The notes below the pieces were generated by a model. It searched no databases. It had not been told where the DNA came from and was given only the letters and a program-made list of their open reading frames with translations. This document shows positions 13,306 through 45,924 of a DNA stretch of 46,057 nucleotides, one piece after another (position 1 is the stretch's first letter; each line of letters begins with the position of its first letter). The DNA lies in the NCBI RefSeq assembly GCF_003337245.1, contig NZ_QPJE01000017.1, positions 1 through 46,057 of the forward strand. Reading direction: 5' to 3'. This DNA comes from Halanaerobium sp. MA284_MarDTE_T2 (GTDB taxonomy: Bacteria > Bacillota > Halanaerobiia > Halanaerobiales > Halanaerobiaceae). Position numbers and translations under genes: made by a program.

Positions 13306-14190
13306 TCACCCCTTATATCCCATTCTTTTAAGGAGGTTTTCTTTTTCTCGCCAGTCTTTAAGAACTTTTACCCATAAATCCAGATAAACCTTTGTCTGCA
13401 GAAGATCCTCTATTTCTTTTCTTGCATTTTTACCTATTTTTTTCAGCATAGAACCATTTTTGCCAATAATAATACCTTTATGTGACTTCTTTTCTACATA
13501 AATATTGGCTCTAATATAATAATCTTCATTATCTCTTTCTTTTACCTCTTCTACCAGAACTGCAACTCCATAAGGAACCTCTTCTCTACATAAATAAAAA
13601 ATTTTTTCTCGAACTATTTCGGCAAAAATAAATCTTTCTATCTGATCTGTAATCATATCATCTGGATAATACTGTGGACCTTCAGGAAGATGCAGAAAAA
13701 CTTCAGCCAGTAAAGAATCTAGATTTTTCTCTTCTGCAGCAGAAATTGGAATAACTTCCAGTGAGGTTTTCTGACTGTATTCTTTCTGTTTTTTTAATAT
13801 ATCGTTTTTACTCATCTTATCAATTTTATTCATAACACAAATTACTGGTTTAGAATAATTTTTGATTTGATTAAATATCTGCTGATCCCCTCTACCAAAG
13901 TAGGTACTGCCATCAACAATAAATATTACTACATCGATTCCTTCAAGACTTTTATAAGCTTGATTTATCATATAATTATCCAGCTTATTGCTGGGTTGGT
14001 AGATACCTGGAGTATCTATAAATATAATCTGGCCATTATCTTCTGAATAAATTGCCTTAATACTGTTCCTGGTTGTCTGAGGTCTTGGTGAAGTTATATT
14101 TATTTTTTCCCCTACTAATTTATTTACTAAAGTAGACTTCCCAACATTAGAACGGCCAATTACTGTAACAAATCCTGATTTATAATTCAT
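13306..14190 (-). CDS. era: GTPase Era
   Basis: An essential GTPase that binds the 3' end of 16S rRNA and assists 30S assembly. G motifs are visible: GRSNVGKST (G1, with Ser where Pro or Ala is common), DTPGIYQP (G3) and NKIDK (G4). The C-terminal KH domain has GIIIGKNGSMLKKIG. I chose the second of two adjacent ATGs (14190, 294 aa) because GGAG is seven bases upstream; the first, at 14193, is also possible. It overlaps the end of cdd by 11 nt, giving translational coupling, and is close to ybeY and phoH, as in other Firmicutes. Confidence 0.96.
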   Translation of the reverse strand: MNYKSGFVTVIGRSNVGKSTLVNKLVGEKINITSPRPQTTRNSIKAIYSEDNGQIIFIDTPGIYQPSNKLDNYMINQAYKSLEGIDVVIFIVDGSTYFGRGDQQIFNQIKNYSKPVICVMNKIDKMSKNDILKKQKEYSQKTSLEVIPISAAEEKNLDSLLAEVFLHLPEGPQYYPDDMITDQIERFIFAEIVREKIFYLCREEVPYGVAVLVEEVKERDNEDYYIRANIYVEKKSHKGIIIGKNGSMLKKIGKNARKEIEDLLQTKVYLDLWVKVLKDWREKENLLKRMGYKG

Positions 14191-14596
14191 CATTTTTCTC
14201 CATATTTTCTTCGGTAAAAGCACCAGGAAGCAGCTCACTACTTGTCATAATAAGCTCTTTACCCCTATCAGTCATCATAACAACTTCAATATTATCTGAA
14301 AATTCTTTAATAACCTGTCGGCATGCCCCACAGGGTGTGACTGGTTTTTCAGTGCTGCTTACTAAAAGAAGTGCTTTAATATTTTTCTTCCCATGAGAAA
14401 CTGCATTAAAAATAGCAGATCTCTCAGCACAATTGCTAAGACCAAATGATGCATTTTCTATATTCACTCCAGTATATATTTCTCCCTCTTCTGTCAGCAC
14501 AGCAGCCCCCAGAGGAAAATTAGAATAGGGAACATATGCATTCTGCTGTACTTTAAGTGCAGCTTTAAAAAGTTCATCCTTAACTTTTTTTTCCAT
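14180..14596 (-). CDS. cdd: Cytidine deaminase
   Basis: Hydrolytic deamination of cytidine and deoxycytidine in pyrimidine salvage. Zinc ligands and catalytic glutamate are visible: Cys56 and Glu58 in CAERSA, and Cys89 and Cys92 in PCGAC. The substrate loop NIENASFG is intact. The 138 residues are those of the homotetrameric type. It overlaps era, as in Bacillus and many Clostridia. Confidence 0.95.
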   Translation of the reverse strand: MEKKVKDELFKAALKVQQNAYVPYSNFPLGAAVLTEEGEIYTGVNIENASFGLSNCAERSAIFNAVSHGKKNIKALLLVSSTEKPVTPCGACRQVIKEFSDNIEVVMMTDRGKELIMTSSELLPGAFTEENMEKNDEL

Positions 14597-43846: not shown

Positions 43847-43954
43847 CTAAAAATAGTTTTTGATAATTTCAGCCAGAATAGTTTTTCCTGAAGCTATTCC
43901 CTCTGCAGTACCAATCAAAATGCCTGTATATCTAAAACTCTTTAAATATATATT
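43847..43954 (-). pseudogene. Protein-like remnant, about 35 codons, no start codon
   Basis: Behind the DUF3343 gene and overlapping its end, one minus-strand frame reads YTGILIGTAEGIASGKTILAE and ends in KNYF before a stop codon at 43847. It has no upstream start, because a stop codon precedes it within the DUF3343 gene. The wording resembles the C-terminal end of a flavin- or nucleotide-dependent enzyme, but it is too short to assign. It could be the tail of a gene lost by deletion. The rest of the 43636-43941 gap holds the comEA promoter, the terminator and AT-rich DNA. Confidence 0.3.
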
Positions 43955-44211
43955 TTATTATATCTTTTATTTTCATTTTCGGCAGTAACCTCATAAACTT
44001 CTTCAATTACAACATTATTTTTTTTCATCAGCTGTAAAACATCTTTTAAATTTTCATTAAATCTAACTGCTGAACCACAATCCGCTGTTATTTCAGGTGG
44101 AACAGGAACAATTCTATAAGAAATATTTTCGGAAGAAAAAATCTTTTCTGCTTTTATGGAGTGATGTGTAGACTGAAATACCAGAAGGTAATATTTGTTT
44201 TTTTCTACCAC
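43942..44211 (-). CDS. DUF3343 protein (putative Se/S carrier-like)
   Basis: A small cytosolic protein (89 aa) of a family repeatedly found beside selD and yedF and described as a putative selenium/sulfur carrier. It starts YYLLVFQSTHHSIKAEKIF, has the conserved PVPPEITADCGSAVRF segment whose single cysteine could carry Se or S, and ends in a short strand. It overlaps the selD stop codon by 7 nt, so expression is coupled. Function remains an inference from neighbourhood. Confidence 0.85.
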   Translation of the reverse strand: MVEKNKYYLLVFQSTHHSIKAEKIFSSENISYRIVPVPPEITADCGSAVRFNENLKDVLQLMKKNNVVIEEVYEVTAENENKRYNKIYI

Positions 44212-45260
44212 TTTAATACAACTCCTTTGTCTCCATCAACCACTTTACCAATTACTGCAGCATCAATATCCTCAGTATAGAGGTCAATCAAAAAATTTGA
44301 AGCATCTTCTTCACTAATGGAAATCAAAAGCCCCCCGGAAGTTTGAGGATCAAACAGGAGATCATAAATAATATCTTTTCTATCACCTTTTTCCATTACA
44401 AATTTTTTATATGTATCTCTATTGGTATAAGCACCTGCTGGTAATAACCCCATTTCAGCAAATTCATCTGCTCTATCCAGAACAGGAATAGAATCTGGTT
44501 CAATTTCAATTGTTCTTTTACTACCTTCTGAAAGTTCAAGAAGATGCCCTATAAGACCAAACCCAGTAATATCTGTACAGGCATTTATATTGTACTGTGG
44601 AAAATATTTAACAGCTTTATTATTCAATTCAGTCATTGACTTTACAGCATGATTTGACAGATCACCACTTATGAACCCTGCTTTTATTGCTGAAATCATA
44701 ACTCCAACACCAATTTTTTTGGTCAAAACAAGAAGATCTCCACTCTGAGCTTTTGAGTTAGTCAATAAATTACTAGGATGAACTGTACCGGAAACAGAGA
44801 GTCCGTATTTAGGTTCATCATCAACTACAGTATGACCACCACACAAACTGGCACCAGCTTCTCGAACTTTATCAGCTCCACCTTTTAAAATTTGTGCCAG
44901 TATATCGTTTTCTAGACAGGATGGAAATCCAACAATATTCATTGCTAAAATTGGTTCTCCCCCCATGGCATAAATATCACTTAGCGCATTTGCAGCCGCT
45001 ATTTGTCCAAAAAGATAAGGATCATCTACAACTGGTGTAAAAAAATCTACAGATTGAATTAATGCCAATTCATCAGAAATGCTATAAACAGCAGCATCAT
45101 CTGCATTATCTAAACCTACAATTAATTTTTCTCTATCAGCTGGAAAATCCACTTGACACAGAACCTGTGCCAGGGCATCAGGACCCATTTTTGCTGCTCA
45201 GCCAGATGTTTTACTGTAATCTGTTAGTTTAATTTTATCCACAAATTCACCAACTTTCAT
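44205..45260 (-). CDS. selD: Selenide, water dikinase (selenophosphate synthetase), selenocysteine-containing
   Basis: Makes selenophosphate from selenide and ATP for selenocysteine and other selenium uses. The frame starts at ATG 45260 and reads through an in-frame TGA at 45198-45200 (codon 21), inside the SGxAAKMGPDAL motif where homologues have Cys or Sec. Reading it as selenocysteine gives a 351-residue protein of normal length; ignoring it leaves a 327-residue form lacking the catalytic loop. Downstream motifs are complete (DDAAVY, QSVDFFTP, CGGHTVVDDEPKYG, DITGFGLIGHL, FDPQTSGGLL). The ribosome binding site is weak (TAGGT), and the gene follows yedF by 47 bp. Confidence 0.93.
45154..45200 (-). 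promoter_or_regulatory. UGA codon with bacterial SECIS-like hairpin in selD
   Basis: From the UGA (45198-45200), 25 nt downstream, the stem TGGCACAG/CTGTGTCA (8 bp including one G-U) carries a GTT loop, so GG-U lies at the apex. The position (about 33 nt after UGA) and small G-U loop fit bacterial SECIS elements that recruit SelB. Folding was done by eye. Confidence 0.7.
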
Positions 45261-45307: not shown

Positions 45308-45880
45308 TTACAAAATTAATGCTTTACCATTATTAATGCTGTCTGCAATTTCGTACATATTGCTTATTTTTCCAACTTTAATTTTATCTGTTAAATTATA
45401 ATAATTTAAACATGTACCACAAACTAAAATATCAGTTCCCTTTTCTTCTAATTCCTTTAACACTGAAATAGTTTCAGGATAAATAGTAGTTAATTTAACT
45501 CCAGAATTTATAAATAGCAATTTTTTAGGCCGAGGAGTAATATCTAGCAGGGTACTTAAAAAACCCTTCATTAGAATTTTACCCAGTTCTTTTTCTCCTT
45601 CACCCATATTCTCAGATCCAATTAAATAAACTTTGGCATTATCATTTTGAGACTCATTAGTAACAGTCCCTTCTGGCGCTGTTATTAAAATTTTAAAAAA
45701 GTCTTCTCCCTCTTTTACAGTCGAATAACTGCAGTTCATCTTTTTGGCAAGTTTGGCAACATTCTCTGCGGCAATTTCATTATCAACAATAGTAGTTATT
45801 TTAGTATTATCATCAAGAGCCTTTTTTGTTAAAACTACCGGTTTTGGACAGTCCATTCCTCGTGCATCAATTTCTTTCAA
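45308..45880 (-). CDS. yedF: Selenium metabolism protein YedF (TusA-DsrE fusion)
   Basis: The N-terminal TusA/SirA-like domain has the sulfur/selenium-carrying cysteine in DARGMDCPKPVV (Cys11). A C-terminal DsrE-like domain follows, with KVYLIGSENMGEGEKELGK and CGTCLNYY. Proteins of this domain order cluster with selD and are annotated as sulfurtransferase-like selenium metabolism YedF. I chose TTG at 45880 (190 aa), behind AAGGAGG; an upstream TTG lies inside that binding site. It is the first gene of the selenium operon. Confidence 0.92.
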   Translation of the reverse strand: MKEIDARGMDCPKPVVLTKKALDDNTKITTIVDNEIAAENVAKLAKKMNCSYSTVKEGEDFFKILITAPEGTVTNESQNDNAKVYLIGSENMGEGEKELGKILMKGFLSTLLDITPRPKKLLFINSGVKLTTIYPETISVLKELEEKGTDILVCGTCLNYYNLTDKIKVGKISNMYEIADSINNGKALIL

Positions 45881-45924
45881 ATTATAAACCTCCTTCAAAT
45901 AATTTATAATATTTACTAATGAAA

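Follow-up and report, generated by a model that had tools for sequence, protein, structure and literature searches.

The selD Gene of Halanaerobium sp. MA284_MarDTE_T2, Its In-Frame UGA as a Very Probable Selenocysteine Codon, and Two Predicted RNA Hairpins Downstream

The selD reading frame and its start

This study examined the selD gene, encoding selenide, water dikinase (SelD), on a stretch of 46,057 nucleotides (nt) from Halanaerobium sp. MA284_MarDTE_T2; this stretch, hereafter the window, corresponds to contig C17 in a genome of 2.47 Mb and 99.8% completeness. On the minus strand, the frame that opens at ATG 45260 meets only one stop codon, TGA 45200-45198, ahead of TAG 44207-44205, and when that codon is read through the frame (45260..44208) gives a complete SelD with no further interruption, translating as MKVGEFVDKIKLTDYSKTSG-U-AAKMGPDALAQVLCQVDF..., where U stands for selenocysteine (Sec). 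The TGA lies within the active-site motif SG-U-AAK (context TSG-U-AAKMGP), whose Sec and catalytic lysine columns are invariant in the SelD alignment. A preliminary description of this DNA had reported a frame from ATG 45260 that is open save for a TGA inside SGxAAK; this is what the minus strand contains, and a re-reading of positions 45198-45200 for TGT or TGC returned TGA.

The read-through protein scores 385 bits against the NCBIfam model TIGR00476 (selD; cut-off 125) over residues 11-319 of the 45260 frame, contains both AIR-synthase domains (Pfam AIRS and AIRS_C), and aligns end to end with a bacterial selenide, water dikinase of known structure (3u0o, E=3e-67). The mechanical open reading frame (ORF) call instead puts the selD start at ATG 45188, so that the active site is lost, as had been foreseen for a standard gene call. 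That call would suit an explanation in which the TGA either terminates translation or results from a sequencing error, and selD is a pseudogene or is made from AUG 45188 only. However, the methionine at 45188 is unconserved (isoleucine, valine, leucine or methionine), the TGA is common to orthologues in many genera, the remaining protein is clearly conserved, and the genome contains the Sec machinery described below; a true stop or an error is thus considered extremely unlikely.

The start codon was placed by comparison with relatives. All eight of the closest relatives among those listed (L026-L033) have ATG at the codon aligned with GTG 45242, and seven of them carry, just 5' of it, a ribosome site of the GGTG type (GTTGGTG or GAGGTGGTG), the eighth having AGGGGG; four relatives have an in-frame TAG immediately 5' of the GGTG-type site. 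Because of these aligned ATG codons, the four upstream stops, and the GTTGGTGA that sits 4 nt 5' of GTG 45242 in the window, selD probably starts at GTG 45242 rather than at ATG 45260. The coding sequence would then span 44205..45242 on the minus strand, from GTG 45242 to TAG 44207-44205, and specify 345 amino acids including Sec at residue 15 (Sec15; UGA 45198..45200). A start at ATG 45260, with Sec at codon 21, is the less likely alternative; the segment 45243..45260 (minus strand), which that start would add as an N-terminal extension, is by codon comparison with relatives more likely a leader with the ribosome-binding site GTTGGTGA. The UGA is in frame, as first described, and it is the number 21 given to it that probably has to be replaced by 15.

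Very probable selenocysteine at the active-site codon

Across the SelD loci examined, TGA occupies the active-site codon in 187 of 213 and cysteine (Cys) codons occupy it in the rest, fractions that come from sampling centred on the window SelD and are not a census. The first survey, which included named genomes and a phylum sample, contributed 112 TGA and 23 TGC/TGT codons among 135 loci, and further distinct loci contributed 75 and 3, respectively, among 78. In the same order, every SelD read at the active-site codon has TGA there, Cys being found in some more distant SelDs. In the set of 41 order and class genomes, the full-length SelD matches each contain one TGA, two of them together with another stop, and those read at the active-site codon have TGA at it. 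That many SelDs carry Sec at this position is well known. In a 223-genome reference set, 19% of SelDs contain Sec, always at the same position (PMC4561486), and Sec-containing SelD ranks second in abundance among prokaryotic selenoprotein families (PMC13188914).

The machinery for Sec insertion is encoded elsewhere in the genome, as the preliminary description had predicted for selA, selB and selC. On contig C35, selA (592 bits) adjoins selB (384 bits), whose product has two SelB winged-helix domains, which bind the Sec insertion sequence (SECIS), and the tRNA-Sec gene (selC) follows 66 nt beyond the pair (Rfam 64.5 bits; ARAGORN anticodon TCA). SelU, the tRNA 2-selenouridine synthase, is encoded on contig C7. 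The further selenoproteins that had been expected are represented by fdhA on contig C26 and grdB on C35, both with an in-frame TGA at the known Sec site (HCARL-U-HSSTVAGL and LTST-U-GTCTRCGA, respectively). A standard gene call drops the active site of SelD, and fdhA and grdB of the same genome pose the same in-frame UGA problem, giving the Sec reading value for annotation.

An in-frame UGA would also be tolerated in selD if UGA had been reassigned across the whole genome, for example to tryptophan (Trp), and were not a Sec codon. Yet, of the 41 window ORFs listed, 7 end in UGA, Trp is encoded by TGG 54 times, a tRNA-Sec with anticodon TCA is present together with SelB, and the residue aligned with the UGA in other SelDs is Cys, not Trp; reassignment is accordingly regarded as having a negligible chance of being correct. 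Because the protein is SelD, the SelDs of relatives share the TGA, selA, selB and selC are clustered in the genome, fdhA and grdB contain in-frame TGA codons, and UGA serves as a stop elsewhere, selD is with high confidence a selenoprotein gene in which UGA is decoded as Sec, as originally claimed. Taking together gene, codon, machinery, conservation and the covariation presented below, Sec is almost certainly inserted at UGA 45200-45198.

Several side observations concern the distribution of selenium genes. Two genomes of the same family (G004 and G006) have no match to selA, SelD or SelU and no tRNA-Sec above the cut-off; that these selA-lacking genomes are also without SelD likely reflects a recent loss of selenium use, several close relatives having retained it. 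Another genome (G010) has Sec-SelD in two copies as well as two selA/selB pairs of full length, and two selA/selB pairs were also found in G005. In the window genome, grdA (L193) is divided between contig C5 and the start of C35, probably by an assembly gap holding the Sec codon. An apparent second read-through in the window, at TGA 13308-13306, flanked on either side by hundreds of open codons, was rejected as the stop of era (13306-14238) followed in the same frame by mgtE (to 11965).

Two hairpins downstream of the UGA

The 49 nt from the UGA are predicted to fold as two end-to-end hairpins. The proximal hairpin, GGGU-CCUGAU-GCCC (45173..45186, minus strand), begins 11 nt downstream of the UGA; its predicted energy is -4.9 kcal/mol. 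The distal hairpin, UGGCACAG-GUU-CUGUGUCA (45154..45172, minus strand), is a candidate SelB-binding SECIS with a stem of 8 base pairs (bp), a GUU loop and an energy of -9.7 kcal/mol; it begins 25 nt downstream of the UGA, and its loop lies at a distance of 33 nt. The published limits for bacterial SECIS (bSECIS) elements are an apical loop of 3-9 nt with G in the first two positions, a stem of 4-16 bp, a UGA-to-apical-loop distance of 16-37 nt and a minimum free energy <= -7.5 kcal/mol (PMC13188914). The distal hairpin lies within all of them, and the proximal hairpin falls outside (loop CCUGAU, -4.9 kcal/mol). The preliminary description had noticed a single SECIS-like hairpin, small and with a G-U loop, 25 nt downstream: its position is exact and its loop is GUU, but an 8-bp stem within the bSECIS limits is hardly small, and the second hairpin at 45186-45173 had gone unmentioned.

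Comparison among relatives carries the case for this RNA element. In 47 SelDs of the GUU type, that is, with the distal hairpin, the 12-pair structure has 90.8% of its cells paired (98.7% in the distal helix and 75% in the proximal one), against 36-52% in slid controls, and 83 cells have changed on both sides, against a shuffled mean of 25. All 4 proximal pairs show two-sided changes among relatives. Double changes fall at codon third positions, with GC replaced by AU, CG and UA at column pair 33-43 and by AU at 36-40. Compared with synonymous shuffles, the distal region folds with a mean z of -3.0 in GUU-type genes and -0.9 in Cys-SelDs, a contrast that is partly circular in that the GUU type is defined by the distal hairpin; for the proximal region, the mean z is -2.5 in distal-type genes and -0.8 in Cys-SelDs.

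The distal hairpin also divides the Sec-SelDs into two classes. Over 185 of them, a GUU-type distal hairpin is long in 76 and absent from 105, with few intermediates, and it occurs in none of 26 Cys-SelDs. The distribution of distal stems in the first 110 Sec-SelDs is bimodal (0-3 pairs in 54, 4 pairs in 2, at least 5 in 54); among the 54 longest stems, 53 have a GUN loop and 52 have 7-10 pairs, and no GUN hairpin of 5 pairs was found among the 23 Cys-SelDs of this set. The held-out set, consisting of 75 Sec-SelDs gathered after the first survey, divides similarly into 51 without the distal hairpin, 1 with 4 pairs and 23 with it (Cys-SelDs, 0 of 3). Additionally, a pyrimidine stands at the silent third base of the proximal-loop proline codon in 46 of 53 distal-type genes of the first set versus 1 of 54 others, and in 14 of 23 versus 3 of 51 in the held-out set (Fisher p=8e-7). 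Therefore, the proximal loop usually reads C-G/A-G-G/A, with GG at the canonical distance, where the distal hairpin is missing, and usually does not where it is present. A SelD tree computed with the SECIS columns left out requires a minimum of 24 changes of architecture (59 with shuffled labels). Among 12 independent supported pairs, the proline codon base changes in the same direction in 8.4 on average, and no pair shows the opposite direction (sign test p about 0.008). SelDs of family f4 (L041, L042, L044, L046, L048) are without the distal hairpin and can form GGCCAG-AGGAG-CTGGCC-like hairpins nearer the UGA.

A protein-level origin of the two-hairpin pattern was considered, namely that it is a by-product of the conserved sequence GPxxLAQVLR/C and codon bias, with no selection on the RNA. 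Only SelDs with an xQVL-type sequence have the distal hairpin, which means that the protein does contribute, and the single-sequence P of about 0.05 is in keeping with such an origin. Still, the double changes at codon third positions, the difference in mean z between GUU-type and Cys genes, and the protein-silent proline base that tracks the distal hairpin all speak for selection on the RNA, making a pure by-product improbable.

Some observations weigh against a tandem element with a distal SelB site. In the window alone, the distal stem is marginal against synonymous-codon shuffles (P 0.046 for the stem, 0.05 for the energy), and the whole 49-nt fold does not reach significance when compared with dinucleotide shuffles (z=-0.93). 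The Rfam SECIS families gave no match here at gathering or permissive thresholds; a weak match to a CRISPR repeat family on the other strand (E=2.4) was dismissed as chance. The SECIS elements of fdhA and grdB are single hairpins whose loops lie ~18 nt after the UGA, positions that were read by eye and from which the minimum-energy fold of this genome's grdB copy differs, and the distal loop of selD is 15 nt farther. Finally, some Sec-SelDs combine the GUU hairpin with a GG proximal loop. The window-only statistics are weak and no claim is built on the window-only fold; the comparative evidence for the RNA element is strong.

Standard bacterial Sec insertion explains the selD gene. With the ribosome at UGA 45200-45198, SelB carrying Sec-tRNA-Sec would be held by the RNA element just downstream and would deliver Sec into the selenium-binding loop of SelD, which could then make selenophosphate for SelA, and thereby for the Sec that it needs itself, as well as for SelU. 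The SelB-binding part is most likely the distal 8-bp GUU hairpin (45172-45154), an assignment that the comparative pairing favours with reasonable confidence. For the proximal hairpin (45186-45173, from 11 nt after the UGA), the role put forward first, and tentatively, is that of a folded spacer: subtracting its 14 nt from the 33-nt distal loop distance leaves about 19 nt, near the 18 nt of the GG(U) loops of fdhA and grdB, a match that is arithmetic and is backed by the retention of the proximal stem.

The converse arrangement, with the proximal hairpin as the true SECIS at canonical distance and the distal GUU hairpin as an accessory or pausing element, draws on the start of the proximal hairpin 11 nt after the UGA, which puts its loop at the fdhA/grdB loop distance, and on its being kept, with two-sided pair changes, in most distal-type genes. 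It is nonetheless unlikely given what happens to the loop: SelDs without the distal hairpin nearly all keep the loop purine, mostly as GG, whereas the purine is gone from most SelDs that have the distal hairpin. With the distal hairpin taken as the SelB site, bacterial selD genes may, as a working proposal that could well prove wrong, use two SECIS architectures between which they have repeatedly switched: a single proximal GG-loop hairpin at the canonical distance, or a tandem in which SelB binding passes to a downstream 8-bp GUU hairpin and a loop-inactive proximal spacer keeps the effective UGA distance constant. Such a recurrent pair is a modest and perhaps undescribed variant with a putative function; the pattern was not found described in the literature searched, which excluded most subscription journals and the primary bSECISearch publication, and no priority is claimed. 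The two architectures would offer natural paired designs for probing what sets the UGA-to-SelB distance.

Selenium neighbourhood and comparison with known systems

Genes of selenium metabolism flank selD on the same strand. Directly upstream lies yedF (45308..45898), encoding a TusA/DsrE-type selenium-metabolism protein (TIGR03527, 213 bits; Pfam TusA and DsrE), which is near selD in 19 of 27 class and order loci. Downstream lies a DUF3343 gene for a putative selenium/sulfur carrier (43942..44211; PF11823, 84 bits), near selD in 20 of 27 such loci; its GTG start overlaps the selD stop, which suggests translational coupling.

Sec-containing SelD, its SECIS and its yedF/DUF3343 company are already known. 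The window protein is an ordinary member of the Sec-containing SelD/SPS2 (selenide, water dikinase) family, with the same Sec position, and its neighbourhood has the same gene content as the yedF-selD-DUF3343 neighbourhoods known from comparative genomics (PMC5322559), whereas the gene order and overlap seen here are local details that differ. Relative to the bSECIS consensus model of bSECISearch, the distal hairpin fits in loop, stem, G position, spacing and energy, but its spacing of 33 nt is close to the upper limit of the 16-37 nt range and an extra conserved hairpin lies between it and the UGA. The SECIS of E. coli fdhF is a single hairpin with its loop ~18 nt after the UGA. Compared with this element and with those of fdhA and grdB in the same genome, the SelD stem has no evident bulged U, while the GU/GG apical loop is common to all of them.
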